Below are positions 184 to 17,627 of a stretch of 33,225 bases of DNA, in pieces. The position numbers and the translations under genes were made by a program. Position 1 is the stretch's first letter; the number at the start of each line of letters is the position of its first letter. This DNA comes from Acidobacteria bacterium UBA7540. Lineage in GTDB: Bacteria; Acidobacteriota; Terriglobia; UBA7540. The notes under the pieces were generated by a model. The model had not been told where the DNA came from, made no database searches, and saw only the letters and a list, made by a program, of their open reading frames with translations. Location of the stretch: positions 1 to 33,225 of the forward strand of contig DLMI01000199.1 of assembly GCA_002478145.1 (NCBI GenBank), in the 5' to 3' direction.

Positions 184-442
184 AAAAGTTCTATGAAAGA
201 ACGATGTGAATTGGGGCACTCTGCCGGGACGGTTAGGAACACGCCGGGAGGTAGCGGCGACGAAAGAAGGCCCTGCATTTCGAATTGATTAGAACGTTCT
301 GGGGGCTTCGCCCCCAAGGTCCCAGGGTTTATCGCTTTGGTGCCGGGATTGGTCTCGGAGGGGGGAGAAAGGCGAAATGCCGGCTCTCTCTGGCGAATCA
401 ACGACTTATGCGTGTAAGAGGCAGAGATTTTTGACAGTACGC
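184..442 (+). repeat. Leader repeat, copy 1 (about 260 bp, with GC hairpin)
   Basis: This gene-free stretch aligns collinearly with 17341-17603. Matching landmarks are AAGTTCTATGAAA (AAGAGTTTTATGAAA in copy 2), the perfect inverted repeat GGGGGCTTCGCCCCC at 301-315, TTTATCGCTTTGGTGCC at 328-344, a GGTCTC then G-rich run, a CGAAATGC word, and the box TTTTTGACAGTACGC at 428-442. Spacing between landmarks is almost the same in both copies. The hairpin could act as a terminator-like or REP-like element. Nothing coding is supported here. Confidence 0.75.
428..442 (+). promoter_or_regulatory. Shared leader box TTTTTGACAGTACGC (copy 1)
   Basis: This exact 15-mer occurs three times in the window, each time 22-24 bases before a start codon (here 22 bases before ATG 465). 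It contains TTGACA like a sigma-70 -35 box, but a -10 at normal spacing would fall on the ribosome binding site and none is visible. An operator or a conserved mRNA leader element is more likely than a plain -35 hexamer. Confidence 0.6.
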
Positions 443-464
443 AGTAACTTAAAAGGGGGTAGGC

Positions 465-1874
465 ATGATTAGGAAACCGCGACTTGGAATCCTGGGTTTT
501 TCAGACGGTGAGCCGGAAGTCCACGAGCAGCTCAAAGGGTTTGTCCAGACTACCCTGGACGGCATCGCTGATGCATTAGAGAAGAGTGGCGAGGTTGAAG
601 TTGTTAAAGGCGATCGACTCGTGAACTCAGTTGAGTTGGCCAAAGAAGAAGCTTTGAAGATGGTCGCCAAGAATTTGGACGGCACCATTTTCTCTTATGG
701 AGTTTTCAGTTTTCCAAATTTCTCCGCCATCGCCGCCAAGAACGGGAAAGGCCCATTCCTCTTGGCCGCCAACCTTCTTCCTGACTGGCCCGGGATGGTG
801 GCGATGCTGGCCTCTGGCGGCGCCTTGCATCATCTGGGAATAGAACACTTTCGCGTTGCTGGCGATATCAATAGGAAAGAGGTCTTGGAAAAGTACTTAA
901 CGTTTGCCCGATGCGCCAGGGTGGTGAGCAGCCTGAACGGGCAGAAGTACGGGATGATCGGGGGCCGGAGCCTTGGCATGTACAGTGCCGTCGTGAGTAT
1001 GCAGGACTGGCAGGAGAAATTCGGCGTCGATGTTGATCACCTTGACGAATCGGAAATTGTCAGGATCGCTGAAACCATTCCAGAGGAACAGGTAGAGAGG
1101 GCCTTCAAGTGGTTGAATGAAAACATAGGTCAGATCAAATACGACGATCACCACCTTACACCCGAGAAACTGAAGACCCAGATCCGCCATTACGAAGCCA
1201 CTAGGCAGATCATTGAAAAGAACAAGTTCGATTTTGTGGGGGTCAAGTGCCACTACGAAATGAGCCGCCACTATTGCACCCAATGTCTCGGTGCAGCATT
1301 CTTTAACGATCCGTACGACTGGAACGGCCCTAAGGAAACCACGGTTTTTTCTTGCGAAGCGGATGGCGACGCCGGGCTAACCATGCAAATCCTGAAACTG
1401 CTTACCGGCGACCCGGTCATTTTCATGGACGTCCGACATTACGATCCTGACTACGACGTGATGGTTTTCTGCAACTGCGGGTCACAATCAACCTGGTACG
1501 CTGGAAGGTCGAATGATCCCAAGGAGAATCTGAAGAACGTCACCATGTATCCTTGTCTTGAGATCTATTCCGGCGGCGGAGCTCACGTCAACTGCATGAC
1601 CAAAGCGGGAATAGCTACGATTGCTAGACTTAATCGCACCGAGCGCCGGTATCGCATGACAATCATCCCGGCCGAGTTTGTGGAGCTCCCTCGCGAAAAG
1701 ATGAAGGAGACGACAGAGGAATGGCCGCACGTGTTTGCCAAACTGCCGTTTGACCATAGCATCTTTCTTGACAAGTTCGACGCTAACCATTGCCACGCTG
1801 TCTATGGTGATCACGTCGAAGAACTGAAGATGGTCTGCAAAATGCTTGAGGTTGACGTGGAATTGTTAGCGTGA
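465..1874 (+). CDS. L-fucose/L-arabinose isomerase-family protein
   Basis: A 469-residue cytoplasmic protein of the FucI/AraA fold, which interconverts aldoses and ketoses using Mn2+. Visible signatures are SCEADGD (E298) and IFMDVRHYD (D322), which match the metal-binding Glu and Asp of FucI, followed by YSGGGAHVN near residue 374 with a candidate third ligand His. It is shorter than E. coli FucI (about 590) and closer to the compact uncharacterised isomerase-like group. The start at ATG 465 is supported by AAAAGGGGG just upstream. It follows a sugar permease and precedes an RpiB-type isomerase, a ketose 3-epimerase and DhaK/DhaL, so it probably makes the ketose that enters that pathway. The substrate cannot be read from sequence. 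Confidence 0.85.
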   Translation: MIRKPRLGILGFSDGEPEVHEQLKGFVQTTLDGIADALEKSGEVEVVKGDRLVNSVELAKEEALKMVAKNLDGTIFSYGVFSFPNFSAIAAKNGKGPFLLAANLLPDWPGMVAMLASGGALHHLGIEHFRVAGDINRKEVLEKYLTFARCARVVSSLNGQKYGMIGGRSLGMYSAVVSMQDWQEKFGVDVDHLDESEIVRIAETIPEEQVERAFKWLNENIGQIKYDDHHLTPEKLKTQIRHYEATRQIIEKNKFDFVGVKCHYEMSRHYCTQCLGAAFFNDPYDWNGPKETTVFSCEADGDAGLTMQILKLLTGDPVIFMDVRHYDPDYDVMVFCNCGSQSTWYAGRSNDPKENLKNVTMYPCLEIYSGGGAHVNCMTKAGIATIARLNRTERRYRMTIIPAEFVELPREKMKETTEEWPHVFAKLPFDHSIFLDKFDANHCHAVYGDHVEELKMVCKMLEVDVELLA

Positions 1875-1988
1875 GCACGGCATGTTGAGTCCTGCTGTCG
1901 AAGTTGGATCCTGCCGGGACGGGTCAATGCGCGCCCGGAATTCCTGAAATATGCTCCCCGCCGACTCCAGAAAAGAGGATGACGCCAC

Positions 1989-2435
1989 ATGAAAATAGCC
2001 ATCGGCTGTGACCACTTGGGGTTACCTCTACAGGAGGAGATCATCGCCCTATTGCGGGAGCGAAACATTGATTTCCAGGACTACGGTGTCGGTTCGAAGG
2101 ACAAGATAGACTATCCTGACGTCGCGGAAAAAGTCGCTTGCGCGGTTCAGCAGGGTGAGTTTGATCGGGGGATCCTCGTCTGTGGGACCGGCATTGGAAT
2201 GGCGATTGCTGCAAACAAAGTCCCCGGAATCCGCGCTGCTGTAGTTCACGACCCGTACTCGGCAGAGCGCTCTCGCAAGAGTAACAACGCACAGGTTATG
2301 GCGATGGGATCGCTCATCGTTGGCCCCAAGGTCGCACAGATGTTGGTCTCGATTTGGCTGAACTCCGAATTCCAAGGGGGCGAGTCGGCGCGTAAAGTGG
2401 AGAAAATCAGTCAGATTGAAAAGAGGTATCGATAA
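1989..2435 (+). CDS. RpiB/LacAB-family sugar-phosphate isomerase
   Basis: A 148-residue protein of normal RpiB length. It has the N-terminal GCDHLG motif (residues 6-11) and the active-site loop CGTGIGMAIAANK with catalytic Cys65. Where E. coli RpiB has HND for ring opening, this protein has SNNAQ, so the usual His is Asn. RpiB itself interconverts ribose-5-P and ribulose-5-P; relatives act on allose-6-P, galactose-6-P and erythrulose-4-P. Its place beside DhaK/DhaL and a ketose epimerase argues for a catabolic sugar-phosphate isomerase rather than housekeeping RpiB. AAGAGGA upstream of ATG 1989 supports the start. Confidence 0.88.
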   Translation: MKIAIGCDHLGLPLQEEIIALLRERNIDFQDYGVGSKDKIDYPDVAEKVACAVQQGEFDRGILVCGTGIGMAIAANKVPGIRAAVVHDPYSAERSRKSNNAQVMAMGSLIVGPKVAQMLVSIWLNSEFQGGESARKVEKISQIEKRYR

Positions 2436-2650
2436 GGAGATGCATCATTTAACGCTGGTTAGCCCAGCTATCGTATCCAGCTGAGCATGGCGCTTGACCC
2501 AAAATGGCTAGGTGCTCAGTAACTCTGACGCGATCAGGTGACGATGAAGGAGGGTGGCTGGATCGAGGGGCTACTTGCCAGTCCTTATGGGAGGCTGTTT
2601 AATGACTGTTTGTACATCCTGTTGAGAATCCAAAAGTGGAGAGGATTGTC

Positions 2651-3517
2651 GTGTTTAAGTTTGGAGTTGATTCGTTTATTTGGTCCGAGAACTTTGCCGT
2701 AAAGGATCTCTGGATCATACCGAAGGCCAAGGAGTTGGGTTTTGAGACGCTTGACATCGCCATTGCTTATCCGGAAATATTCCCGACCCCCGAGGTCAAG
2801 GCGAAGGTTTCCGATGTGGGGATCGAGGTAGTCACCACCACTACCCTCAACAAAGACACAAATCTCATCTCCCCAGAGCCAAACGTCAGGGCGGCAGGAG
2901 TCGAATCGTTAAAGAAGCTCGTGAACCTCAACATCGAATTAGGATCAAAGATCCTTGGGGGAGTCAACTATGCGGGTTGGGGTTGCCTTACCGGGAAGCC
3001 CAGGACGGATCGGGAATGGGAATGGTCAGTGCAGGCAATGCGCGAAGTGGCCCAATATGCCCAGAGCAAATCCGACTTGATCATAGCCCTGGAACCTGTC
3101 AACCGATTCGAGACGCACTTTCTCAACATCGCCGAGGATGCGGTGAGATACTGCAAGGAGGTGGGCACCGGGAACATTAAGGTGCACCTGGACAGCTTCC
3201 ACATGATACGAGAGGAGACCAGCTTTACGGGAGCGGTGAATACGTGTGGGAGAGAATACCTCGGCTACGTCCACCTGTGCGAGAACAACCGGGGCATACC
3301 GGGCACAGGGCTTGTTCCGTGGAAAGAATTCTTCACCGCATTGAAGAGCATTGGGTACTCTGGTCCGCTGGTTATCGAATCATTCGACCCAGGCTTTGAA
3401 GAATTGAACCGGTTATGTGCAATCTGGAGAAAGTTCGCTGAATCCGGGGAGGCCTTGGCGATCGAGGGCTTAAGAAACTTGAAGGCTATCGCCTCGGAGG
3501 TTGAAAAAAGCGTGTAA
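2651..3517 (+). CDS. D-tagatose/D-psicose 3-epimerase-family protein
   Basis: A 288-residue sugar phosphate isomerase/epimerase TIM barrel. It opens FKFGVDSFIWSE and carries the four metal ligands of the ketose 3-epimerase family: ALEPVNRFET (E148), HLDSFHM (D181), VHLCENNRGIPGTG (H208) and VIESFDP (E243). The ENNRGIPGTG loop is typical of enzymes acting on free ketoses. GTG 2651 is preferred over GTG 2636 because GGAGAGG (2638-2644) sits six bases before it and the protein then begins as its relatives do. It probably epimerises the ketose made by the upstream isomerase before kinase action. Exact substrate unknown. Confidence 0.85.
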   Translation: MFKFGVDSFIWSENFAVKDLWIIPKAKELGFETLDIAIAYPEIFPTPEVKAKVSDVGIEVVTTTTLNKDTNLISPEPNVRAAGVESLKKLVNLNIELGSKILGGVNYAGWGCLTGKPRTDREWEWSVQAMREVAQYAQSKSDLIIALEPVNRFETHFLNIAEDAVRYCKEVGTGNIKVHLDSFHMIREETSFTGAVNTCGREYLGYVHLCENNRGIPGTGLVPWKEFFTALKSIGYSGPLVIESFDPGFEELNRLCAIWRKFAESGEALAIEGLRNLKAIASEVEKSV

Positions 3518-3593
3518 GCAATTGGAATGAGAACGGAGGAAGCGCCATAGACCTTGAACCTTGAGTCCGCCAGAACGGAAGGGGGAATGCACG

Positions 3594-4598
3594 ATGCAAA
3601 AGATCATCAATGATCCTCGATGTGTGGTTGATGAAATGGTCGAAGGCTACCTCGCGGCATATTCAGAGACGGTAGAGGCCACAGGTAACCCTAGGGTCTT
3701 GAAGTCCAAACTCGCACCAATCCCCAACAAGGTCGGGATCGTGACCGGTGGGGGTTCCGGGCACAAACCGGCTTTCCTCGGCTACCTCGGACGCAATATG
3801 GTGGACGCGGTTGCCGTGGGGGAAATCTTCTCCTCCCCGCCGGCGCAGATGTTCTACGACGCCTTTCGGGTAGCCAACTCGGGGAAGGGGGTCGCATGTT
3901 TATTCGGTAACTATGCCGGCGACATCATGAATGTGAAGATGGCCATCAAAATGGCTGCCGATGACGGAATCGAAGGCAAGACGGTTGTGGCGAACGATGA
4001 CGTACCCTCCGCGCCACGCGACCAAAGGGAGAAGAGGCGGGGTGTTGCCGGTGAAGTCTTGATGTGGAAAATAGGCGGGGCAAAAGCCGCGATGGGTGTA
4101 AGTCTCAGCGAAGTCATCCGCGTTGCCCAAAAGGCAATCGATAATACCCGGAGCATGGGAATCGGCTTGAGCCCCTGTACGATTCCTGAGGTGGGGCACC
4201 CCAACTTCACGATAGAGCCGGGGAAAATGGAGGTGGGCATAGGGCATCATGGTGAACCCGGCTTGGAAGTCGCCGCGCTGGTCTCGTCAGGAGAAATGGC
4301 GCAACGCATGCTCGATATCATCCTCCCGGACCTCCCATTTAAAGCGGGAGAGGAAGTCGTGGTCTTGATATCAGGCCTGGGCTCCACTCCTTTGATGGAA
4401 CAATTCATTCTCTACAACGATATCCGCAAAATCCTTGCGAAAAAAGAACTGAGGCCCTATCGGTCATATCTCGGGAATTATTTCACAAGCTTGGAGATGG
4501 CAGGTGTTACCTTGACGGTTTTGAAACTGGATGAAGAATTGAAAGAGTGTATCGATTACGAGTGTGATTGCATGGGGTTGAGGCAGTTCGGGAGGTAA
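3594..4598 (+). CDS. dhaK: Dihydroxyacetone kinase DhaK-type subunit
   Basis: A 334-residue protein with all substrate-binding features of DhaK: GGGSGHKP (His57), GNYAGDIMN (Asp110) and GHHGEPG (His219), each offset by one from E. coli DhaK H56, D109 and H218. His219 would bind the ketose carbonyl covalently. The start at ATG 3594 is chosen because GGAAGGGGG lies just before it and the sequence matches DhaK from there; an upstream TTG would add an unlikely tail. DhaL follows after 3 bases. No PTS phosphoryl donor (DhaM) is seen, so an ATP-dependent two-protein kinase is likely. Homologues include erythrulose kinases, so the substrate may be a tetrulose or pentulose rather than dihydroxyacetone. 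Confidence 0.88.
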   Translation: MQKIINDPRCVVDEMVEGYLAAYSETVEATGNPRVLKSKLAPIPNKVGIVTGGGSGHKPAFLGYLGRNMVDAVAVGEIFSSPPAQMFYDAFRVANSGKGVACLFGNYAGDIMNVKMAIKMAADDGIEGKTVVANDDVPSAPRDQREKRRGVAGEVLMWKIGGAKAAMGVSLSEVIRVAQKAIDNTRSMGIGLSPCTIPEVGHPNFTIEPGKMEVGIGHHGEPGLEVAALVSSGEMAQRMLDIILPDLPFKAGEEVVVLISGLGSTPLMEQFILYNDIRKILAKKELRPYRSYLGNYFTSLEMAGVTLTVLKLDEELKECIDYECDCMGLRQFGR

Positions 4599-4601
4599 AT
4601 C

Positions 4602-5267
4602 ATGGGGGGGTTCTGCCTTCAACAAGGGAGCATAATTTGCTCGAATATCATCAAGACGATTCAGGACAACAAGCAATACTTAAGTGACCTGGATGGGATG
4701 GTGGGGGATGGGGACCATGGTATCAATATGAACAAGGGGGCAACGCTCTGCGCGGCGGCCTTGGAAGAAAGACCAGGGAATCTGGCCCATTGTCTGGCAG
4801 CGCTCTCGAAGACGTTAATGGGAAATGTCGGCGGGGCCATGGGTCCCCTGTATGGCATGTTTTTTCAAGGTATGGCGAAAGCCTGTGAAGGCAAGGACAC
4901 TATTGATTCAGTGGTGTTTGAAGAAATGCTCAAGTCCGGCGAGGCGGGAATCAGGAGCGTCAGTGAGGCGAAGGTGGGAGACAAAACGATGATGGATACG
5001 CTCATCCCCGCCATTACCGCTTATTCGGCGGCGGTTGGTTCGGGCAAGAGTTTTATCGAGAGTTTGGAGGCTATGAGAAAAGCCGCAATCGCGGGCAGAG
5101 ATTCCACGAAGGATTTGGTGGCGAAAGTTGGCCGGTCAAGCCGCCTAGGAGAACGATCCAGAGGTGTCCTGGATGCAGGCGCCGTTTCGCTCTTTCTGAT
5201 TCTGGATTCTATGGCCGAATCGATTGAGTCCTTGATACGTCGAAATAGTTCAGTTCCCGGCGAATGA
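4602..5267 (+). CDS. dhaL: Dihydroxyacetone kinase DhaL-type nucleotide-binding subunit
   Basis: A 221-residue DhaL-like protein. The Mg-ADP/ATP site is intact: DGMVGDGDHG with D31, D36, D38 and H39 (E. coli D30, D35, D37, H38), then GNVGGAMGPLYG, VGDKTMMD and GRSSRLGERSRGVLDAG near the C-terminus. GGAGG (4590-4594), overlapping the end of dhaK, serves as its ribosome binding site, so the two are translated as a pair. It should supply ATP phosphorylation for the DhaK-bound ketose. Slightly longer than the 210-residue E. coli protein. Confidence 0.88.
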   Translation: MGGFCLQQGSIICSNIIKTIQDNKQYLSDLDGMVGDGDHGINMNKGATLCAAALEERPGNLAHCLAALSKTLMGNVGGAMGPLYGMFFQGMAKACEGKDTIDSVVFEEMLKSGEAGIRSVSEAKVGDKTMMDTLIPAITAYSAAVGSGKSFIESLEAMRKAAIAGRDSTKDLVAKVGRSSRLGERSRGVLDAGAVSLFLILDSMAESIESLIRRNSSVPGE

Positions 5268-5549
5268 CCTGTCCTCATTCGAGTTGAGGCTCCCAAGTTC
5301 TACGATCGGGGTTTGCACGGGAGAAGCTAGGGGACCCAGTCAGTCTGGATCAGGTGTTCAAGTGCGTAGGATAGGCTCTCTTCGCTACCGCGGGTGGTGC
5401 CGTCGGCCCCCTCATGCGGGTTCCGGGGCAAGGCGGTCACGATTCCGGGATGAATCCGGGCACCGATTCCGGTTTCAAGCCGGTCACTTTGGGCCGCTTG
5501 TCGGAACCTTGACCGGGATCATTTCGGAACGATTTCCGCAGGGCGAAGG
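5268..5549. other. Non-coding stretch with GC-rich near-repeats
   Basis: No gene is supported here. Between about 5430 and 5500 there are imperfect direct repeats around the words GTCACGATTCCGGG, GCACCGATTCCGGT and GGTCAC. The stretch separates intact dhaL from a DhaK fragment and may be recombination or insertion-element debris, but no transposase remnant was recognised. Confidence 0.4.
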
Positions 5550-5771
5550 ACGCTGGACGAGGTCGTCGCGGCAGCGCGCAAGGCGAATGACAATACGAGG
5601 ACGATGGGCGTGGCCCTGACTTCATGCACGATTCTAGCCTCCGGTAAGCCGGTTTTTCAGCTCGGGGAGGACGAAATGGAATTGGGCTTGGGTATTCATG
5701 GTGAACCCGGCGAATTGCGAAGCAAGCTCGAGCCGGGCGACAGAGGCGTTGGCGGTTCCCCGGGTAGGTAG
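5550..5771 (+). pseudogene. Fragment of a second DhaK gene (C-terminal middle part)
   Basis: Read from 5550 the frame gives TLDEVVAAARKANDNTRTMG, then VALTSCTILASGKPVF, then GEDEMELGLGIHGEPGE, and stops at TAG 5769-5771. These match the DhaK region around the covalent substrate His (compare GHHGEPG in the intact gene at 3594-4598), and the DEME and GIHGEPG words are closer to classical DhaK than the intact copy is. Both ends are lost and there is no start codon. It is a remnant of a different DhaK paralogue, not a copy of its neighbour. Confidence 0.8.
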
Positions 5772-5807
5772 CTGGCACGCTTAAGCAAGAAGGCAAGGTA
5801 CAGACTC

Positions 5808-7112
5808 ATGAAGCACGACCCAAGTGATCAGCCACCCCTACTGGTGGCAGAAGAAATCAAACTCTTGCCAAAAGATAAAGAGATCCTTCGACGCTTGGCC
5901 GGAGAATTGGCTGGGATCGCCGCGCTGCCGGTTCACAAGGAGAAGGCGCGACTCTGGCGGAAGCTGAACGACCGCGAGTCCGAGCGTCCGATGGTCTGGA
6001 TCAACGAAATCTGCTGGCATGAGATGGACGTGGACGACGAGTTGAGGCTCCGGACCGAGCACCCCTGGGCGCAGGAGCAGGAAGGGGAATTGCGGCGCAC
6101 CCTCTATCAGTGGCGGCACCTTCCGGGCGACATGATCGTGAGCGACTTCCTCGCCTGCCCGCTGGCGATTCACTCCACCGGCTTCGGAATCGTCGAAGAT
6201 GTCGATATCGCCACCACCGATCCGGCTGCCGATGTGGTGTCGCGCCATTTCCATACTCAGATCCGGGATTTCCCGGATCTCGAAAAGATCAGGATGCCGG
6301 TTGTCACTCACAACGAGCTGGCGACGGAGCTTTACTACCAGGCCATGTGCGACGTCTATGGTGGCATAATGCCGGTGAAGAAGATGGGGCAGACGTATAT
6401 TTCGTACACACCGTGGGATTACCTGATCCGATGGTGGGGCGTGCAGGAGGCGATGCTCGACCTGGTGGAACGGCCCGACCTGGTGCATGCCGCTGTGGAG
6501 CGCATGGTGGATGCGTGGATCACCGAACTGGATCAGTTGGTGGAGATGAATTTGCTCTCGCTGGATTGGAATAACAAGCGGACCTTGTCGGGCGGCTACG
6601 GGCGCACCAAGTCACTGCCTGGACCGGACTTCGATCGAAGCCACGTGCGGCCACGCAACATGTGGAGTCGCTCGAACTCGCAGATCTTTTCCAGCGTCTC
6701 ACCCGAGATGCATTGGGAGTTCGCCGTCAAGCACGATCTGCGCTGGCTGGAGCGTTGGGGAATGGTGTACTACGGCTGCTGCGAGCCGCTGGACCGTAAG
6801 ATCGAAGTGCTGCGTCGGATTCCGAATCTGCGCAAGATTTCAGCGAGTTACTGGAACGATGCCGAGCGCTTGGTGGACGAGGTCGGGAGCGACTATGTGC
6901 TTAGCCACAAACCGACTCCGGCGATCTTTGCGCGCGATCACTGGGACCCGGACGAGGCGCGGCGAGAACTCCGAACCTTTCTCACCAAGACGGGCGGCCG
7001 ATGCCACGTGGAGCTGATCATGAAGGATATCTCGACGGTGCGCCACCAGCCGAAAAAGCTATGGGAGTGGGCGAAGATGGCGATCGAAGTGGCAGAAGAG
7101 TTCGCCCGCTGA
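5808..7112 (+). CDS. Uroporphyrinogen decarboxylase-like protein (uncharacterised subfamily)
   Basis: A 434-residue cytoplasmic protein resembling the large UroD-like proteins found in carbohydrate clusters of Acidobacteria, Planctomycetes and Lentisphaerae. Recognisable parts are a long N-terminal extension (residues 1-60), TYISYTPWDYLIRWWGVQEAM, a long acidic helix (VERPDLVHAAVERMVDAWI), and YYGCCEPLDRKIEVLRRIPN, which sits where corrinoid methyltransferases have their HxC zinc motif. True heme-pathway UroD is about 350 residues and lacks this extension, so a heme role is unlikely. The biochemical function of this subfamily is not known to me. It starts at ATG 5808, preceded by a modest AAGAAGGCAAGG site, and runs toward UxaA-type and RraA genes. 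Confidence 0.7.
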   Translation: MKHDPSDQPPLLVAEEIKLLPKDKEILRRLAGELAGIAALPVHKEKARLWRKLNDRESERPMVWINEICWHEMDVDDELRLRTEHPWAQEQEGELRRTLYQWRHLPGDMIVSDFLACPLAIHSTGFGIVEDVDIATTDPAADVVSRHFHTQIRDFPDLEKIRMPVVTHNELATELYYQAMCDVYGGIMPVKKMGQTYISYTPWDYLIRWWGVQEAMLDLVERPDLVHAAVERMVDAWITELDQLVEMNLLSLDWNNKRTLSGGYGRTKSLPGPDFDRSHVRPRNMWSRSNSQIFSSVSPEMHWEFAVKHDLRWLERWGMVYYGCCEPLDRKIEVLRRIPNLRKISASYWNDAERLVDEVGSDYVLSHKPTPAIFARDHWDPDEARRELRTFLTKTGGRCHVELIMKDISTVRHQPKKLWEWAKMAIEVAEEFAR

Positions 7113-7173
7113 GTGGGCTCACATACAAGGCGAATCGAGGAAGCAGGCGCTGGATGGTAGCCGGAGAATTCTC

Positions 7174-7443
7174 ATGTCTTCTTCGTCACAGAAATCGAAA
7201 GCATTGCCAATCGATCCTCGTGACAACGTTGCGGTGGCTCTCGACGAGATCGCCGCAGGAACGCAAGTGCTCATTCAGGGGGCTGCGCTCGAGGCCCTCG
7301 AGCGGGTTCCCTTTGCTCATAAGATGGCCATCCAGCCCATTTTGCCTGGGGAGGCGATCCTCAAATACGGTGTGCCCATTGCCTTCGCCAGGGCCAGTAT
7401 TGAGCCCGGCGACTGGGTCCACGAACACAATGCTCAGTCGTAG
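7174..7443 (+). CDS. UxaA-family small subunit (SAF domain), altronate/galactarate dehydratase type
   Basis: An 89-residue single SAF domain: DPRDNVAVALDEIAAGTQV at the N-terminus and IPF-like closing section ending EPGDWVHEHNAQS, the expected pattern of the small half of altronate (UxaA) and galactarate (GarD) dehydratases. In many bacteria this domain is its own gene, followed at once by the large catalytic half. Here the large half starts 26 bases later (7470) but is cut off after 46 residues, so the small protein is probably left without a partner in this locus. GGAGA upstream of ATG 7174 supports the start. Confidence 0.75.
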   Translation: MSSSSQKSKALPIDPRDNVAVALDEIAAGTQVLIQGAALEALERVPFAHKMAIQPILPGEAILKYGVPIAFARASIEPGDWVHEHNAQS

Positions 7444-7469
7444 TTCGCTGCAAGAAGAAGGGTGGACTG

Positions 7470-7610
7470 GTGATCCTAGGCTACGCGAGGGCGGACGGTC
7501 GATTGGGAATGCGGAAGCATCTTCTCTGCGTCCATAGGGTCGAGTCTTCCTCGTTCGTTACTCAGCAGATCGCGGCCACGGATTGGGAAAGTGTCTTACC
7601 CAAGGCGTAG
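7470..7610 (+). pseudogene. Truncated UxaA-family large subunit (N-terminal fragment)
   Basis: From GTG 7470 the frame gives LGYARADGRLGMRKHLLCV, then HRVESSSFVTQQIAA, and stops at 7608-7610. The first part matches the opening of the UxaA/GarD catalytic half (GY-RADGR-G-RN-L consensus), directly after the small SAF subunit as in intact loci. After about residue 36 the match ends and the DNA turns into an unrelated glycosidase tail in another frame. The several hundred residues of catalytic domain that should follow are absent. A clean recombination junction near 7565-7600 is inferred. Confidence 0.7.
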
Positions 7611-8086
7611 TGCCGGCGGGCGGTTGGGGTTTTTCGGAACCCAAGGAGCTGAATCCGGTCACCATCGATTTCTATAAGAAGGTGGTGCGTGCCGCCGCGC
7701 AGAGCTGGAAGTACCTGATGTTTGGAGAGATGCTCCGGCCTCCAAAGATCGATGTGCCCGTGATTACCGCCTCCTACTTCCCATGGACCATTGGCCACCT
7801 GGATCCCGCTAATCGGCATGTGGTTAAGGACTACGCGGTACAACACTCGGCCTGGCGGTCGCGGGAGGGGAAGATTGGGTATTTCTTCGCGAACGTTTCT
7901 CAGGAGGCGGTGGAATTTGAGGTGGAGCTCTCATCTTATTCCCAAGAGGAGCATGCCTATGATGTGGAAAGCGTGACGGATGGTAAGCGGGCGATGCTAG
8001 GAGAGCGTATCAAGCTTCCCTCGAAACAGCGCTTTCGCTTGGAACCTCTCTCCGTGACACTGGTTGAAATCAGCCGCGCGACCTAA
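7583..8086 (+). pseudogene. C-terminal fragment of a large glycosidase-like protein (DUF6259-type), copy 1
   Basis: An open frame of up to 167 residues with coding character: WGFSEPKELNPVTIDFYKKV, WKYLMFGEMLRPPKI, SAWRSREGKIGYFFANVSQE and a beta-rich end RFRLEPLSVTLVEIS. This resembles the C-terminal end of large DUF6259-type or GH-like proteins, where a barrel is followed by a beta-sandwich. There is no credible start or ribosome binding site, and the left end abuts the truncated UxaA gene. The last 290 bases are repeated at 13316-13604. It is a tail left after recombination. The family name is a moderate-confidence recollection. Confidence 0.65.
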
Positions 8087-8197
8087 GTTTGCTCTGTTAC
8101 GTCGGCAGCAATATTGACTCTGGTTCCGTTACTCTCATTCGGCAAGGTGAAGGGCAAGGGCGCTGGAACTTTTACTAATGGAACGGAGACAATCTAC

Positions 8198-8398
8198 CAT
8201 TCGGACCTAAGGGCGTTGTATTGGATCAACGTCTTTATGATTGATGGGACGGAACAAACGGCGAAGCTAATTGAGAATATCGATGAGGACTATACCGAGC
8301 CCGTAGATTTCGGGAAGATATTCCAGCAGTTGCCGCCACTCACCACCGTGTTCTGACAGGCAGCGGAAGAGGCGGCTCTGCCATAACAAAAAGAGCGG
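8198..8398 (+). pseudogene. Tail fragment of the exported GH-like family
   Basis: The frame reads LYWINVFMIDGTEQTAKLIE, then DYTEPVDFGKIF, almost identical to the last 60 residues of the intact exported protein ending at 20165 (LYWINVFMIDGTEQTAKLVE). Nucleotide similarity continues beyond the stop codon through GGCAGCGGAAGAGG and the AACAAAAAGAG trailer. Everything upstream of about 8198 is missing. It marks a former third or fourth copy of that gene. Confidence 0.8.
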
Positions 8399-8490
8399 TA
8401 ACCAGGAAGCTCCAAACATTGAAGCTCGTCCGAAATCGGCAATGGGCCATGAGACGGACGTATTGCGACATGAATGAAAGGAGAAAAGTT

Positions 8491-9177: not shown

Positions 9178-9478
9178 CCTGCCTCCCGCTGCCTTCCATG
9201 GGTAGGCCCAGCGGGCAGCCCGGTTCGATGCTATTCGCGGCGTAGCGCCATTTCAGAAGGCCTTTCGCCCGCCCTGAAATGTGCGCTAAGGCGAATGTCC
9301 ACCGGTCGCACTCGTATAATGCTGACGGTTCATTCGTCCCACAAGAACTACCTATGCAAAACAACATCCGGCGCCTCGCAGAGTTCTGTCCAGCTCACAA
9401 TGTACCTGGCGTAAGGAATACCGTTGGGTCTTGTCGGCCGCGGCCAGTGTGTATCCGACGCCCGAAGGGGGAATGGAA
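9178..9478. other. Intergenic region before the nucleotide-sugar cluster
   Basis: About 300 bases without a gene. A perfect TATAAT lies at 9315-9320, but the -35 position (9292-9297, CGAATG) does not match TTGACA. The transition from RraA to the epimerase operon suggests a promoter here. Nothing else is recognised. Confidence 0.45.
9315..9320 (+). promoter_or_regulatory. Possible -10 box (TATAAT) for the GDP-sugar cluster
   Basis: A consensus TATAAT about 160 bases before the epimerase start. No good -35 hexamer accompanies it, so an activator-dependent promoter or chance match is possible. Confidence 0.3.
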
Positions 9479-10549: not shown

Positions 10550-11339
10550 AATCACTTCGATTATCAGCGGAATTCCCTATCGGATGGCATTTGCCGGCGG
10601 GTGGATCGATCAACCGTTCATTTCGAAACTCAATCCCACTCCACCGGGCTCCATGGTCGTGGTCGGTCTGGAGCCCACCTTCCGATATATGGATCGCTGC
10701 GGCATGGCCACCAGTACGCGCGAGGTGACGCGCAAGCTGTGGAACGGCAAACTGCCGAATGGAGATCCGAGGCAATTGGCCCGCGAACTGTATGAGGCAG
10801 AAAACCAGGGCAAGCCGGAGCCCTCCGGTTCGCAGGACATGGCGGGCCTGATATATCCGGGAGTGAACAGGCTGGACTATGACTACAGCTACGAGGGCGG
10901 CTACTTTCCCGTCCACGTCGAGTCCAACAATGACCCGGACGTCGCCCATTGGTTGGAGGACGTGATTCACATGGTGCCGGTGGCGCAGCGTCCCGACGGC
11001 TACAATCCCCTGGGGCAAAAGAACCTCGACCCGAAGTGGATCCAGAGGCTGGGCGAGACAGGTAAGCAGTGCTTTGATGCCATTGTGACGAAAAACTGCG
11101 AGGCGCTGGGCGCCTCAATGAATGAGTGCATGAAGTGCTGGGAGACGATTCTGCCCCACACCCTGCGGCATCCGATACTGATCGTGGACCTCCCCGGCAT
11201 CCTTCACTATTATCAGCGCCGGTACGCGGGCGCCATGTATTCCGGTTGTGGAGGGGGATACCTTTACGCCACCGCGGATGAGCCTGTCCCGGGTTCGATG
11301 AGCGTGAAGGTGCGCGTCGCGCAACGGGTTGCCAGATGA
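10527..11339 (+). CDS. Divergent GHMP-superfamily kinase
   Basis: A 270-residue protein with remnants of all three GHMP motifs: IPYRMAFAGGWIDQP (15-30, motif 1, compare FAGG-TD-P of heptose and fucose kinases), RCGMATSTR (57-65, in the place of the G-x-GLGSSSA ATP loop), GSQDMAGLIYPGVN (about 101-114), and YSGCGGGYLYATAD near the C-terminus (motif 3). The distance between motifs is short and motif 2 lacks the usual glycine and serine pattern. It is most like sugar 1-kinases (fucose, galactose or heptose-7-P type). It begins inside the epimerase gene and ends over the ATG of the nucleotidyltransferase, which implies translational coupling and a joint kinase-plus-nucleotidyltransferase role. 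Confidence 0.65.
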   Translation: MHTQQVTEITSIISGIPYRMAFAGGWIDQPFISKLNPTPPGSMVVVGLEPTFRYMDRCGMATSTREVTRKLWNGKLPNGDPRQLARELYEAENQGKPEPSGSQDMAGLIYPGVNRLDYDYSYEGGYFPVHVESNNDPDVAHWLEDVIHMVPVAQRPDGYNPLGQKNLDPKWIQRLGETGKQCFDAIVTKNCEALGASMNECMKCWETILPHTLRHPILIVDLPGILHYYQRRYAGAMYSGCGGGYLYATADEPVPGSMSVKVRVAQRVAR

Positions 11340-12162
11340 TGAATGTTGTCGTATCCGGTGCATTTGATGACCTGAGGTCACGCGAGTTCCGCTTCCTCCG
11401 TGAAGCGTCGAAGCTGGGGGAAGTACACGTGGTCCTTTGGCCTGATCGAGAAATTCAGGCCGTCACCGGGAAGCCTCCCAAGCTCTCGCAGGGGGAGCGT
11501 TTGTACCTACTGCAGTCGGTCCGATACGTCCAAAAGGTCACGGTCCCCTGCAACCTGGATATCCCGGATGCCATCCCTGAGTTTGAGAGTCTGAGCCCCC
11601 GACCCCAGTTGTGGGTGGTCGATGAAGCAGCGGCAACCATGCAGAAGAAACTGTTCTGTGAAATGCACGGTCTGGAGTACCGCGTCTTAGCCCGAGACCA
11701 ACTTCGAGGCTTCCCTTCAGAGAGCCCAGGATTCAACTCTGTTCTTCCCGCCCGAGGAAAAGTGGTCGTCACGGGGTGCTTCGACTGGTTTCACTCGGGG
11801 CATGTCAGGTCCTTCGAAGAGGTGTCTGCTCTGGGCGACTTATAAGTGGTTGTGGGCCACGATGCTAATATCCGTCTGCTCAAAGGAAAGGGCCATCCGA
11901 TGTTCCCGCAAGAGAAGCGTCGCTACATGGTCCGGTCGGTGCGGTTTGTCACAGAAGCTCTCGTCTCGACGGGCCAGGGCTGGCTGGATGCTGAACCTGA
12001 AATCGCCATCTTAAGCCCGACATTTACGTCGTGAATGAAGACGGAGACAAACCGGAGAAGAAGCAGTTCTGCGAGGCGCGTGGCATCCGCTACGTGGTCC
12101 TGAAGCGTGCGCCGAAGGAGGGCCTCCCTGCGAGGTCCAGCACCGGCCTGCGCGGCTTCTAA
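11336..12162 (+). pseudogene. Tandem cytidylyltransferase-like protein, broken by a stop and a frameshift
   Basis: The first half (residues 1-130) is a nucleotidyltransferase-fold domain opening VVVSGAFDDLRSREF, without the HxGH motif. The second half opens VVVTGCFDWFHSGHVRSF with an intact HSGH (about residues 153-156). The frame stops at TAA 11843-11845 in GDL-stop-VVVGHDANIR, exactly where a Tyr codon fits. It continues in the same frame to about 12012, where one missing base shifts it; the next frame gives KPDIYVVNEDGDKPEKKQF and ends GLRGF at TAA 12160-12162. Two separate lesions suggest real decay, though consensus errors in the sequence are possible. Intact, it would transfer a nucleotide to the sugar phosphate made by the neighbouring kinase. 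Confidence 0.75.
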
Positions 12163-12210
12163 GAACGGAAGGTTGAATTACTGCCGGATCTCTCGGAAGG
12201 AGACGATGAT

Positions 12211-13305
12211 TTGAGATACGCGGTTATCCTCGCCGGTGGCTCAGGCACCCGGCTATGGCCCATGAGCCGTGAAGAACTCCCCAAGCAGCTCATAACGTTT
12301 ATCCAAGGGAAAAGCCCACTCACGCTGGCCTTTAAGCGTCTTGAAGGTTTGGTCGAACCGCACAGGCGCCTCATCTGTGCTGGCAAGCGGCATCATGATC
12401 TCATCCTCCATCAGCTCAAAGGCCTTGCCGGAAGCCAGTTTTTGGGCGAGCCCCAGGGCCGAGACACTTTGAACGCCATCGGTTTCGCTTGCGCCGTCAT
12501 CGCGAAAATGGACCCTGAGGCGGCGGTCGCCGTGGTCACCGCTGATCAGCTTATCGAGCCCCAAGAGAGCTTTCGGCGAGTCGTTCGCGAGGGACTGAGT
12601 ATTGTGGAGGCGCACCCGAAAACGCTGGTCACCTTTGGCATCAAGCCCACGCGACCGGCTACTAGCTTTGGATACCTGGAACTCGGGGATAGATTCCAAG
12701 GTGATGCGCGGTTGGTCAAGTGCTTCAAGGAAAAGCCTGATCTGACCACTGCAGAACAATACCTGCGCGAGGGCCCCGAGAGGCATCTGTGGAACAGTGG
12801 CATGTTTGTTTGGAAGGTAATGACGTTCTTGGAGGTTCTGCGACAGTATGAGCCTGAGGTCTTTGCTGGCCTCGCAGAAATCGCTCAGTCGTGGAGGACT
12901 CCTGCTTTTGAGAGGACCCTTGAAGTGGTTTACCCAAGGCTCAGAAAGGTCAGCGTGGATTTGGCAGTGATGGAACGGGCATCCGTCGACCCAGCGGTCG
13001 CAGTGGCCGCTCTAATGATGGACGTCCAGTGGTTAGACATCGGCTTCTGGCCAGCTTGCGCGGACATCTTCCCGAAAGACGCCAAAGGCAATGTCGTGGG
13101 GGCAGAGAAGACCTTGCTTTTTGACTCGACAGGCACCCTCGTGGCATCCAGCGATCCCGATCACCTCATTACAACCATTGGCTGCCAGGATTTAATAGTG
13201 ATTCACACCCCTTCGGCCACGCTTGTTTGCCCCAAGGATCGAGCCGAGGAGATCAAGAAGCTTCATGGCCTCGTCAGGGAAAGGTTTGACGGAAAGTACA
13301 GCTAG
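12211..13305 (+). CDS. manC: Mannose-1-phosphate guanylyltransferase
   Basis: A 364-residue nucleotidyltransferase with the family motif AGGSGTRLWPMSREELPKQ at residues 8-26, FKEKPD for the sugar-phosphate site, and LWNSGMFVWK. It makes GDP-D-mannose from mannose-1-P and GTP. It lacks the C-terminal cupin-type phosphomannose isomerase domain of the bifunctional 480-residue enzymes, so it is the short form. The start is TTG 12211: GGAAGGAGA lies 7 bases before it and the nearby ATG 12206 runs straight into a stop. GDP-mannose is the substrate of the epimerase encoded at 9479-10549, which ties the cluster together. Confidence 0.88.
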   Translation: MRYAVILAGGSGTRLWPMSREELPKQLITFIQGKSPLTLAFKRLEGLVEPHRRLICAGKRHHDLILHQLKGLAGSQFLGEPQGRDTLNAIGFACAVIAKMDPEAAVAVVTADQLIEPQESFRRVVREGLSIVEAHPKTLVTFGIKPTRPATSFGYLELGDRFQGDARLVKCFKEKPDLTTAEQYLREGPERHLWNSGMFVWKVMTFLEVLRQYEPEVFAGLAEIAQSWRTPAFERTLEVVYPRLRKVSVDLAVMERASVDPAVAVAALMMDVQWLDIGFWPACADIFPKDAKGNVVGAEKTLLFDSTGTLVASSDPDHLITTIGCQDLIVIHTPSATLVCPKDRAEEIKKLHGLVRERFDGKYS

Positions 13306-13315
13306 CTCCCCAGGT

Positions 13316-13604
13316 GGTGGACCCCGCTAATCGGCATGTCGTTAAAGACTACGCAGTGCAGCACTCGGCGTGGCGGTCGCGGGAGGGGAAGATCGGGTAT
13401 TTCTTCGCGAACATCTCTCAGGAGGCGGTAGAATTTGAGGTGGAGTTATCTTCTTACTCCCAAGAGGACCGTGCCTATGATGTGGAAAGCGTGACGGATG
13501 GTAAGCGGGCGATGCTAGGAGAGCGTATCAAGCTTCCCTCGAAACAGCGCTTTCGCTTGGAACCTCTCTCCGTGACACTGGTTGAAGTCAGCCGCGCGTC
13601 CTAG
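13316..13604 (+). pseudogene. C-terminal fragment of the glycosidase-like protein, copy 2
   Basis: It encodes DPANRHVVKDYAVQHSAWRS through RFRLEPLSVTLVEVS, matching 7801-8086. It begins only 10 bases after the manC stop codon and has no start of its own. The last part (13472-13586) is identical to 7954-8068 over 115 bases, while the preceding stretch shows scattered differences. It is a second truncated tail of the same family. Confidence 0.8.
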
Positions 13605-13833
13605 AGGATTACTTCAGTTACGTCGGGTCGAATGTGTATTGGATGAAACTTCATTGCGCAACAACGTTAAAACCCGGTCGCTCTCACCAGTCAGGCCTGC
13701 CTGCCACGGCAGAAACTGTTATGATGTCACAACAAGAATTGTTTTGGTGCCGCTGACATAGCGAGTGAGATGAAATGAAAGTATAGTTCGCAGGGGAAAC
13801 CGCTCAGTCTCAAGCAGCGCGAGGAGGAAGTAT

Positions 13834-14865
13834 ATGAATAGTCGCGAACGTGTCTTTGCAATGCTGGAAGGCCTTCCAGTGGATTCTCTTCCTGCCATGC
13901 CCATCACCATGATGTTTGCTGCCGACCAGATCGGGGTGAAATACCTCGACTACGCCACGAACTATCGCCTCCTGGCCGAAGGTCAGATCTGTGTTGCGGA
14001 GCGATTTGATATTGACCACGTCAGTGTGATCTCAGACCCCGGTTGTGAGGCGTCGGCTGCGGGCGCCACCCTCAAACTCTTTCCCGACCAGCCGCCCGCT
14101 ATCGATGAAGAAAACGCCCTGCTGAAAGAAAAGTCCACGCTTACCAGTCTCAAGGTTCCCGACCCCGCTAGTGCTAGAAGGATGTGCAACCGGGCACAGG
14201 GCGTAAGGCTGATGAAGGAGCGCGTCGGGAATGACAAGGTAGTGGAGGGCTGGATCGAGGGACCCTGCGCCGAGGCGGCGGACTTGCGAGGCATCAACAA
14301 TTTGATGCTGGATTTCTACGATGATCCGGCTTTTATCCGAGACATGTTTCAATTTGTCATCGAGATGGAGTTGCGCTTCGCGAGATTTCAAGTCGAGATG
14401 GGAGCGGACCTAATCGGTGTGGGAGACGCAGCAGCCTCGCTGGTGGGGCCGAAGCTTTACGACGAGTTTGTTTGGCCATATGAAAAGAAGCTGGTTGACG
14501 CGTTGCATGCGGAGGGGATAAAAACGCGTTTGCACATCTGCGGGAATACGCGGCGCATTCTGGAGGGGATGGGCAGACTGCACTGTTCCATCGTTGAACT
14601 GGATTGGCTTTCGCCGATGTCCGAGGGACGTGAAAAAATGGGACCGGAACAGGTCCTCATCGGTAACATCGACCCCGTGAGAGCCCTGAGGGACGGGACG
14701 CCCGAGTCGGTTTACCAAGCAGTAGGCGAATGTCATCGTCAGGCGGGCGAGCGTTTCATTGTGGGGGCGGGTTGCGAGGTTACGCGGGATACACCACCGG
14801 CCAACCTCCGGGCCATGGTGCGCTACGCGCGTGGGCACTCCGTAGCGTGCGCAAGCGACTCTTAA
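13834..14865 (+). CDS. UroD-superfamily corrinoid methyltransferase (MtaA/CmuA type)
   Basis: A 343-residue protein of the uroporphyrinogen decarboxylase superfamily. It has RLHICGNTRRIL with His234 and Cys236, and GAGCEV with Cys314, the HxC...C zinc site of MtaA, MtbA and CmuA methylcobamide:thiol methyltransferases. Also seen: VEGWIEGPCAEAADLRG and GNIDPVRAL, usual for this branch. It should move a methyl group from a corrinoid protein to a thiol or tetrahydrofolate, perhaps during demethylation of methoxylated compounds. No corrinoid protein is encoded nearby, so partners must lie elsewhere. GAGGAGGAAG supports ATG 13834. The zinc ligands argue against heme synthesis. Confidence 0.78.
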   Translation: MNSRERVFAMLEGLPVDSLPAMPITMMFAADQIGVKYLDYATNYRLLAEGQICVAERFDIDHVSVISDPGCEASAAGATLKLFPDQPPAIDEENALLKEKSTLTSLKVPDPASARRMCNRAQGVRLMKERVGNDKVVEGWIEGPCAEAADLRGINNLMLDFYDDPAFIRDMFQFVIEMELRFARFQVEMGADLIGVGDAAASLVGPKLYDEFVWPYEKKLVDALHAEGIKTRLHICGNTRRILEGMGRLHCSIVELDWLSPMSEGREKMGPEQVLIGNIDPVRALRDGTPESVYQAVGECHRQAGERFIVGAGCEVTRDTPPANLRAMVRYARGHSVACASDS

Positions 14866-15106
14866 CGATATTGGACGGTGATAGAAATTCCTTAATTACG
14901 AATCTATTCCGTCGCCGTTATTCTTTGGCCCACCTGCATCGAGCTGAGCGCGCGTGTCGGGACGCCACTGCGAGATTTGACGCTCGAACAGGGGGTTGAA
15001 TTTACCAATGTCGGTACCGAAAGGGAATGGAAAGAGAATTATGACTCAACAGCAGAGCGCTTATTACGGGAAGATCACGCCACGCTAAGCAGAACAGGAG
15101 GAGGGA

Positions 15107-15955
15107 ATGGGACCGCTCACTTCAGAACAAGTCAATCAATACCGGAAGGAGGGATACTGTGTTTCTAACAGTTTCCTCGAAAGCGACGTGCTCGCCGCTT
15201 TACTGGCGGACCTCGAAGCAATATGTGAAGACGTTACTGTAGAGACTCACGATAGCAAACGTCTAGAGATGGAATCGGGTCAGTCGCCAGATGGTAAACA
15301 GGTTCGCCGAGTCTACGAGCCGTGCACATACTATCCTAAGTTCCGCACTCTATCTGAATCGACGAAGTTGCTGGACGCCGTCGAACAGCTCATTGGCTCC
15401 CACCTGACTTATCACTACAGCAAGATCAACATGAAGTCTCCAAAAATTGGAGCGGTAGTGGAGTGGCATCAGGACTTAGCTTATTACCCGCTGACCAATC
15501 GTGATTCCGTCACCGTCCTCTTTTATCTCGACAACGCAAATTCTAGGAACGGTTGCCTGCGGGTGGTCCCAGGCTGCCACGCCGGCCCACTGATGGATCA
15601 CACTCGGGGCGGATTCTTCCAGGGGCGAGTTACTGAAGCGGTTGATGAATCGAAGGCCGTTGCAATAGAAGGCGAGGCTGGAGCCGTCATTTTCATGCAT
15701 TGCATGACTCCGCACGCTTCGGCGCCGAACACTTCATCCATCCCCCGTCGGACCCTTATTCTCAGCTATCGCGCTGCGGACGCGTTCCCGATCTACATAG
15801 GAGAGATGTCTGCGGGTATGGAAGCCTACGTGCGCCATGTGCGGGGTGAGCAACTTCACACGGCGCGCTTTTCAATGAGTTCCTTTCCGATCCCCATATA
15901 CGCCCAGAAGACGCGCTCGCTTTACGAACTGCAAGAGTTTTCGCGGCAAGGATAG
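15107..15955 (+). CDS. Phytanoyl-CoA dioxygenase (PhyH) family protein
   Basis: A 282-residue Fe(II)/2-oxoglutarate dioxygenase. It has VEWHQDLAYYP (His121, Asp123 of the facial triad), the cupin strand GCLRVVPGCHAGP, the distal His in TPHASAPNTS (His203) and RRTLILSYR for binding 2-oxoglutarate. The N-terminal EQVNQYRKEGYCVSNSFL is the usual PhyH opening. Members hydroxylate varied small molecules and natural products; substrate cannot be told here. AGGAGGAGGG directly before ATG 15107 gives a strong start. It appears to be transcribed alone or after the methyltransferase gene (241 bases upstream). Confidence 0.85.
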   Translation: MGPLTSEQVNQYRKEGYCVSNSFLESDVLAALLADLEAICEDVTVETHDSKRLEMESGQSPDGKQVRRVYEPCTYYPKFRTLSESTKLLDAVEQLIGSHLTYHYSKINMKSPKIGAVVEWHQDLAYYPLTNRDSVTVLFYLDNANSRNGCLRVVPGCHAGPLMDHTRGGFFQGRVTEAVDESKAVAIEGEAGAVIFMHCMTPHASAPNTSSIPRRTLILSYRAADAFPIYIGEMSAGMEAYVRHVRGEQLHTARFSMSSFPIPIYAQKTRSLYELQEFSRQG

Positions 15956-16234
15956 TCCTGCGCATTTGCAGGGAGCCGATGTATTGCAAAGATTGAAGAA
16001 AGAGCGAAATGGTCAGCTGAGCGCAGGGGAAAAGTTGTCGGGGCAGCGGGGACAAACACCCGACCGATTGAACTGGCTTTCCCGCTTGAACGCGTCAGTG
16101 GGAGCAGTTACAGGGTGACGTTCAGTTTCTGTAGCGCTGCTCCGTGAGGCGCGAGCATCGCCGGTGACGGATCGGCGCCACGGCCAGAGTGAGTGTGCCT
16201 AATCAACCCTGGCGCACTGCACATCCAGAGAGGA

Positions 16235-16255
16235 GAAACCGGAAGGCCCGGTTTC
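16235..16255. repeat. Perfect 8-bp inverted repeat upstream of the aldo/keto reductase
   Basis: GAAACCGG and CCGGTTTC are separated by five bases. No T tract follows, so it is more like an operator or RNA hairpin than an intrinsic terminator. It occupies a place comparable to the GGGGGCTTCGCCCCC hairpin upstream of the other two leader boxes, but is closer to the box. Confidence 0.45.
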
Positions 16256-16295
16256 CCACAGCAATTTAACAGATTATTGGCTTAAAGAACGAAAG

Positions 16296-16310
16296 TTTTT
16301 GACAGTACGC
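16296..16310 (+). promoter_or_regulatory. Shared leader box TTTTTGACAGTACGC (copy 2)
   Basis: Exact copy of the 15-mer found at 428-442 and 17589-17603, here 24 bases before ATG 16335. Apart from the A/G-rich bases just before the box, the flanking DNA does not show the 260-bp repeat, so the box itself is the conserved unit. Confidence 0.6.
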
Positions 16311-16334
16311 TTCCAACCTGCAGGGGGGATTGCT

Positions 16335-17306
16335 ATGAACTACAGAAAGTTCGGGCGAGCCGGGTGGATGGTCAGCGAACTCGGCTATGGCATGTGGGGA
16401 ATGGGGGCCTGGTCAGGCTCCAACGATGATGAATCCAAGCAAGCTCTGCAACGCTCCGTTGAGCTGGGCTGTAACTTCTTCGATACGGCTTGGGCCTATG
16501 GGGAGGGTCGCAGCGAGGCGTTGTTGGGATGGCTGGTCCGCAACAACCCGGGCAAGAAGCTCTATACCGCCACAAAAGTTCCCCCCAAGAATTTCAAGTG
16601 GCCCAGCCGGCATGAATACACTTTGGACGATTGCTTTCCGCCCCAGCACATCGAGGAATACATCCAGCGAAGCCTCAAGAACGCCGGCCTGGAAAGCTTC
16701 GACCTTGTGCAGTTTCACGTGTGGCAGGATTCCTGGGTGGATGACGACCGTTGGGCGAGAAAGGTGGATGATCTGCCGCGCCAAGGGCTGATTCACGCCA
16801 TAGGCATCAGCATCAACCGCTGGGAACCCTGGAACGGCGTGCGGGCGGTTCAATCCGGCCTGATTGATTCCGTGCAAGTGATCTACAACATTTTCGACCA
16901 GAACCCCGAGGACCAGCTTTTCCCAACCTGTGCCGCGAACGACGTTGCGGTGATTACCCGTGTCCCATTTGATGAAGGAACGCTGACGGGGACCCTCACG
17001 CCGGACAGCAAATGGCCGGAAGGCGATTGGCGCAACAGCTACTTCGTGGCGGAGAACCTCAAGGCCAGCGTGGCGCGCGCCGAGGCGCTCAGGCCTCTTA
17101 TGCCCGGCGGCCTGACGATGGCCGAGATGGCTTTGCGCTTTATCCTTAACAATCCCACGATCAGCACCATCATTCCCGGAATGCGCAAGGTCAAGCATGT
17201 GGAGGCAAATGTCGCCGCCTGCAACGCCGGGCCACTTCCGGGTGAACTTTTCGCGAAGTTGCGGCCTCACCGCTGGGACCGGAAACCCACCCGATGGTCG
17301 CAGTAA
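16335..17306 (+). CDS. Aldo/keto reductase
   Basis: A 323-residue NAD(P)H-dependent aldo/keto reductase. The catalytic tetrad is visible: FFDTAWAYGEG (Asp50, Tyr55), TATKVPP (Lys81) and VQFHVW (His128). The C-terminal GGLTMAEMALRFILNNPTIS and IIPGMRKVKHVEAN bind the cofactor. It resembles the broad group that includes sugar and inositol dehydrogenases. GGGGGG upstream of ATG 16335 supports the start, giving the same leader-box spacing as two other genes. It may oxidise or reduce the sugar handled by the other box-bearing genes; plant L-galactose dehydrogenase is also an AKR, but that link is speculation. Confidence 0.85.
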   Translation: MNYRKFGRAGWMVSELGYGMWGMGAWSGSNDDESKQALQRSVELGCNFFDTAWAYGEGRSEALLGWLVRNNPGKKLYTATKVPPKNFKWPSRHEYTLDDCFPPQHIEEYIQRSLKNAGLESFDLVQFHVWQDSWVDDDRWARKVDDLPRQGLIHAIGISINRWEPWNGVRAVQSGLIDSVQVIYNIFDQNPEDQLFPTCAANDVAVITRVPFDEGTLTGTLTPDSKWPEGDWRNSYFVAENLKASVARAEALRPLMPGGLTMAEMALRFILNNPTISTIIPGMRKVKHVEANVAACNAGPLPGELFAKLRPHRWDRKPTRWSQ

Positions 17307-17340
17307 ACCTGCGTTGAACGGTGACCACCGAGGGGACTGT

Positions 17341-17603
17341 CAAGAGTTTTATGAAACCCCTGGGTGAGTCGGGACAGTTGTTGGAGCGCTTTCTGATCGA
17401 CCGACCCGCGCATACGAAGGAAGAAATTGCCTGTGTTCGGAGGGGATTAGGAGCAATCGGGGGCTTCGCCCCCGAGCCCCGGGATTTAATTTATCGCTTT
17501 GGTGCCAGGATTTGGTCTCAGAGGGGGGGAACGCGAAATGCATGTTTTTCCCGCCGCCTCAATGAGTTGGCAGCTCAGAAGGCAAGAATTTTTGACAGTA
17601 CGC
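17341..17603 (+). repeat. Leader repeat, copy 2 (about 260 bp, with GC hairpin)
   Basis: Collinear with 184-442. Shared landmarks are AAGAGTTTTATGAAA, the hairpin GGGGGCTTCGCCCCC (17459-17473), TTTATCGCTTTGGTGCC (17490-17506), a GGTCTC and G-run, CGAAATGC, and the box at 17589-17603. The segment before the hairpin is diverged but nearly equal in length (118 and 117 bases). It fills the gap between the aldo/keto reductase and the exported GH-like gene; no coding is supported in it. Confidence 0.75.
17589..17603 (+). promoter_or_regulatory. Shared leader box TTTTTGACAGTACGC (copy 3)
   Basis: Third exact copy, 24 bases before ATG 17628 of the exported GH-like protein. The A/G-rich bases before the box (GAAGGCAAGAA) resemble those of the first copy (GAGGCAGAGA). 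Confidence 0.6.
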
Positions 17604-17627
17604 CCTAGGGCGGAAAGAGGTGCAGCC

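Follow-up and report, generated by a model that had tools for sequence, protein, structure and literature searches.

Sugar regulons in bacteria are known with operators of the LacI, GntR and DeoR types, and most of the exact boxes that are shared in front of sugar genes are operators. Another kind of described system is the structured mRNA leader as catalogued in Rfam, and a third is "promoter propagation", in which, through mobile or re-used promoters, genes of one genome that are not homologous come to have homologous upstream regions. Here we describe a 15-nt sequence, TTTTTGACAGTACGC, which together with a hairpin precedes three unrelated genes and most likely is a shared control site. In the literature on the box sequence and on the leaders and regulons of Acidobacteria we found nothing on this motif; the Acido-1 and Acido-Lenti-1 motifs are classed as not cis-regulatory in the passage of PMC2864571 that concerns them.

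The locus is like the operators of the LacI, GntR and DeoR types in that a short exact box recurs in front of several carbohydrate genes, its distance to the start codon being fixed. It is unlike them in that the box has no clear dyad by eye (nor does it contain an inverted repeat of 8 nt or more), stands against the SD and has a variable hairpin upstream, and such an operator is here a candidate only. With the Rfam leaders the locus shares a hairpin and a strictly conserved stretch beside the ribosome-binding site, before several transcription units. Unlike them, it belongs to no catalogued family: in the window, by which we mean the whole stretch of 33,225 nt that was analysed, there were 0 matches at gathering score, and the matches from relaxed scans of the three leaders (4, 3 and 1 in number, the best with E 0.89) fell far short of the gathering scores and were at chance level. 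A known Rfam leader or riboswitch was rejected for this reason. As in promoter propagation, homologous upstream regions stand before non-homologous genes, but here only about half of the flanking positions are still identical, next to an intact box, and this combination requires selection on the box.

The box and the leader element

The window contains three exact copies of the box, all on the + strand (Table 1). The sequence-only reading had placed exact copies at these positions, with these distances to the start codons, before genes that it took to be unrelated, and our searches agree with it on each point, the Pfam families of the three genes being different. There is no further site in the window with up to three mismatches; 100 dinucleotide shuffles had on average 0.60 sites at this tolerance, and one of the shuffles had three such inexact sites. 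For the exact 15-mer the Markov expectation is 2.4-3.4 x 10^-5 over both strands of the whole window, where the box is the sole 15-mer with three or more occurrences. The SD lies between the box and the ATG at 3/3 sites and is directly preceded by the box. The annotated ATGs are supported by the lengths of homologues, which are 469 aa for A, 323 aa for most of the listed relatives of B and 845 aa for an identical record of C.

Table 1. Features at sites A, B and C, with positions counted in the window.
Feature	Site	Position	Strand	Remark
GC hairpin GGGGGCTTCGCCCCC	A	301..315	+	upstream of A
Upstream block	A	328..350	+	common to A and C only; 22/23 identical
Leader element	A	352..442	+	91 nt; gapless alignment with B and C
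Hairpin	A	360..391	+	-14.6 kcal/mol; loop centre 52 nt before box
Box TTTTTGACAGTACGC	A	428..442	+	ends 22 nt before isomerase ATG (465)
SD-like GGGGGT	A	455..460	+	read from sequence
Gene A, L-fucose isomerase family protein	A	465..1874	+	Pfam; first gene of run
Leader element	B	16220..16310	+	91 nt; found by blind model search only at E 1.3
Hairpin	B	16232..16257	+	-15.5 kcal/mol; loop centre 51 nt before box
Box TTTTTGACAGTACGC	B	16296..16310	+	ends 24 nt before aldo/keto reductase ATG (16335)
SD-like GGGGGG	B	16323..16328	+	read from sequence
Gene B, aldo/keto reductase	B	16335..17306	+	Pfam
GC hairpin GGGGGCTTCGCCCCC	C	17459..17473	+	upstream of C
Upstream block	C	17490..17512	+	23 bases; 22/23 identical to copy A
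Leader element	C	17513..17603	+	91 nt; gapless alignment with A and B
Hairpin	C	17524..17552	+	-11.6 kcal/mol; loop centre 50-51 nt before box
Box TTTTTGACAGTACGC	C	17589..17603	+	ends 24 nt before ATG (17628) of GH67N-containing protein
SD-like GAGGTG	C	17617..17622	+	read from sequence
Gene C, GH67 N-terminal domain protein	C	17628..20165	+	Pfam; weak GH20 similarity

The operator, mRNA leader or RNA-binding site that the sequence-only reading had proposed is still the best kind of explanation, but the box does not stand isolated, as it had been described, and instead closes a longer element, of which a hairpin is part. In the MAFFT alignment sites A, B and C need no gap over 91 bases, the last 15 of which are the box, and the layout is a hairpin whose sequence varies, about 37 nt of linker and the invariant 15-nt box, followed by the SD and the ATG. 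In the box 15/15 columns are invariant, against 23/76 outside it (Fisher p 2.8e-7, with the columns treated as independent), and selection on the box is well supported. Over the 76 non-box columns A and C have 43 identities, A and B 37, and B and C 35. These gapless columns had been missed in the sequence-only reading, and so had the similarity between A and C, which reaches about 140-150 nt upstream. It includes a 23-base block that begins 99-100 nt before the box, the first 17 bases of which have no match at site B with up to three mismatches. A and C are clearly related, so the copies are not independent, and the element is known from three copies on one contig.

The place of B in the element was judged from several comparisons. 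Its upstream 76 nt have 72 identities to A and C jointly, and the best of 31,946 other segments of the window has 69; against the single sites, 2/31,946 window segments reach the value of B against A, and 2/31,946 against C. The gapped test of B gave 0/10,517 at 70 nt, 2/10,517 at 85 nt and 204/10,517 at 40 nt, the last of which is weak. It is the hairpin part that carries the signal (1/31,982), the linker alone being weak (125/31,986). A covariance model of A and C with the box left out, scanned blind, has a hit at B that begins exactly where it is expected to begin in the same register, and this hit, at E 1.3, is third among the non-training hits and not above chance.

Folding and promoters

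The stems of the three hairpins differ in sequence, and their loop centres all fall 50-52 nt before the box, in a window where hairpin loop centres make up 1.0% of the positions. Compared with shuffles the local hairpins have z values of -2.2 (A), -3.5 (B) and -2.2 (C); the whole-leader folds of A (0.0) and C (0.4) are no better than shuffles, and that of B (-1.9) is somewhat better. The RNAalifold consensus consists of the hairpin and a second helix, formed by the purine run with the U-run of the box, with 16 pairs in total. With three sequences only, one of these pairs is changed on both sides and four are broken in one sequence, the four all being found among the ten pairs of the hairpin. 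The second helix counts for little, since a U can pair with A as well as with G. A switch in which the 3' arm of the hairpin masks the SD was rejected, as the arms were no better than shuffled ones (64, 76 and 69 of 500).

No sigma-70-like pair of -35 and -10 elements 16-18 nt apart was found at the boxes, and the one site nearby lies inside gene B. With a sigma-70 matrix the best scores were 2.9 for A, 6.7 for B (overlapping the ATG) and 4.6 for C, and the background median was 5.8. The sequence-only reading had remarked that the TTGACA embedded in the box is without a -10 partner; the promoter searches confirm this, and together with the matrix scores it led us to reject the TTGACA as a sigma-70 -35 element. 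Since no sigma-70 promoter stands out in the leaders, the three units would be transcribed from promoters at a greater distance upstream or from promoters of another type. Elsewhere in the window, at 26940-26969, there is a clear sigma-70-like TTGACA-N18-TATCAT before an HpcH/HpaI-type aldolase frame at 27089, and its score of 14.5 equals the top score among the background segments.

Gene context and occurrence elsewhere

The run that is headed by the isomerase (465-5267) has rpiB-, epimerase-, dhaK- and dhaL-like genes. Of the 36 loci that were fetched from other phyla, some of them cut by contig ends, 21 have homologues of dhaK and dhaL in the vicinity of the isomerase, and this recurrence suggests a shared sugar pathway and gene transfer. 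An apparent fragment of DhaK was seen by eye in the translation of 5560-5740. Genes B and C are each preceded by an intergenic stretch of more than 300 nt. Gene A has a relative named Terriglobia at 91% identity, and its isomerase cluster represents 94 contigs, the longest of about 505 kb; the nearest organism-named relative of gene B is a Terriglobia protein at 82%, and gene C has Terriglobia relatives at 74% and a nearer relative at 83%. From these relatives the window most probably belongs to Terriglobia.

The GH67N-like gene is tandemly duplicated (17616-22763, period about 2.62 kb). The tandem paralogue of C has an ATG near 20253 and has kept the SD without having the box, and the homology between the two begins at 17616 (matching 20240), that is, after the box. 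The second copy has no single long frame through its first part, the longest listed frame starting from 20835. The window as a whole is rich in duplicated gene fragments, such as a pair of 286 bp with 93% identity (7800-8085 and 13318-13603) and 3'-end fragments of the GH67N-like gene with 84-85% identity (8196-8392 and 19960-20171).

A homologue of gene B with 89% identity, P0241, has a predicted protein that runs 95 residues further upstream. The two agree around the SD (GGIS vs GGIA before Met) and differ before it, and P0241 is without FLTVR, which is what a box translated in that frame would give, so the box is apparently absent. This is one case, with the leader read from a predicted protein, and the method is limited to proteins with an in-frame extension. 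Residues 1-95 are repeated peptides (QSTIGNR...), so that a tandem repeat seems to occupy the upstream DNA where the leader would be expected. Read in this way, the case suggests that the leader may come and go between relatives. The sequence-only reading had the box define a regulon, with one sugar as its conjectured target, and the apparent lack of the box in this homologue tells against a regulon that is old and fixed.

The exact box was found in 0/36 of the isomerase loci, none of which is titled Acidobacteriota, and the box with up to two mismatches in 0/9 Terriglobales plasmids. The exact 15-mer occurs in 18 stretches of the IMG/VR viral collection, by eye without resemblance to the leaders, and an ATG follows it at 10-35 nt in 4/18. 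In L039 the ATG stands 23 nt behind the 15-mer but within a reading frame of 472 aa, and 17/76 upstream positions are identical whether it is compared with A, with B or with C. The open frames of L043 and L051 do not exceed 22-23 codons, and in L044 the ATG is at 17 nt and the frame has 136 codons. In the same collection TTTATCGCTTTGGTGCC occurs in four stretches, three of them near-identical, and by eye it is in none of them followed by the box. A looser pattern of box, SD and ATG matched at least 120 stretches, and among the matches listed there was none in which a box with at most one mismatch came together with an SD-like word ahead of the ATG. When leaders A and C were compared with plasmids, leader B with plasmids and leader A with phages in distant searches, the matches were all short and none was better than E 0.5. 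Model R1 had matches in at least 4 of the 13 searched (the nine Terriglobales plasmids and four genomes) at E 0.26-0.73, which we take as chance; in two of the genomes 150 of 219 and 150 of 273 first-look candidates were scored. No relatives of proteins B and C were found in viral contigs.

Control at the mRNA, at the DNA or neither

A regulatory role for the box is likely. Our preferred reading, which is tentative and may well prove wrong, is that the element is a cis-regulatory mRNA leader of about 90 nt that has been kept before three transcription units of a carbohydrate-gene region. We count in favour of such a leader that the invariance is concentrated in the box and that the three copies agree in strand, adjoin the SD and end 22-24 nt before an ATG, and also that hairpins of differing sequence are found in a similar place and that the boxes have no sigma-70-like site. 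The upstream region of B, which resembles A and C jointly better than other window segments do, and the paralogue of C, which lies inside the run and has an SD without a box, count on the same side. What counts against an mRNA leader is the small set of copies, three on one contig with A and C related, and also the E value of 1.3 for B, the weak 40-nt and linker tests, the broken pairs, the folds of leaders A and C, the null result for masking of the SD, and the homologue of gene B that apparently is without the box. If control is at the mRNA, the 91-nt element would be located within the 5' untranslated region, and the box beside the ribosome-binding site could be the recognition site for a trans-acting factor, an RNA-binding protein or a small RNA, that would set the translation or the stability of the three messages together, while the hairpin may position or insulate the box.

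It is a possibility to be taken seriously that the control instead is at the DNA level, and that the box, placed at the transcription start or a little downstream of it, switches the three units as a transcription-factor operator or as one portion of an alternative-sigma promoter. Most exact boxes shared before sugar genes are operators, the region is a carbohydrate-gene cluster, and the lack of a standout sigma-70 promoter would fit a promoter that is activator-dependent or uses another sigma factor. The box is however without clear dyad symmetry by eye, it is with the SD in between too close to the ATG to be the promoter itself, and a hairpin that is conserved in place with a changing sequence would be left unexplained. 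Action at the mRNA is for us slightly more likely than action as a DNA operator, and for this slight tilt we rely on the position of the box beside the SD, on the presence of the hairpin and on the missing symmetry. A different thought, which we find unlikely, is that a dispersed module, be it a captured or copied promoter or leader or a decayed mobile repeat, by chance has ended up before three genes and that the box is its best preserved end. The long upstream similarity of A and C before unrelated genes and the many duplicated gene fragments of the window would agree with this, and so would the stop of the similarity right after the box; as an SD without a box is seen before the paralogue of C and apparently also before a homologue of B, the leader does behave as a separable module. 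But neutral decay would not leave 15/15 columns beside 23/76, and a purely neutral repeat was rejected on this uneven conservation. The strand and the distance to the ATG are moreover the same at 3/3 sites, and the marks of a MITE or mobile repeat were not seen: terminal inverted repeats and target duplications were found neither by eye nor in the inverted-repeat listing, the decay is very uneven and the window holds no further copy. That the 15-mer is a coincidence is very improbable, even if the same 15-mer turns up 18 times in a viral collection, considering that three copies are set against the very small expectation per window and that the flanks and the place of the hairpin match as well.

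Returning to the mRNA leader, we put forward as a hypothesis a small carbohydrate regulon with a leader that is selectively kept. A bolder and rather unlikely version is that Terriglobia have a class of small structured mRNA leaders that is new, this being its first case, with a hairpin that varies, a linker rich in purines and, immediately ahead of the SD, an invariant UUUUUGACAGUACGC; the leader would be read by a dedicated RNA-binding protein, a small RNA or a ligand and would couple the translation of the isomerase operon, the aldo/keto reductase and the glycoside-hydrolase-like protein. To our knowledge few regulatory sites have been mapped in Terriglobia, and if the reading is true, the exact 15-mer with a hairpin at a set distance would allow a carbohydrate regulon in this group, and perhaps an RNA regulator, to be traced by sequence.
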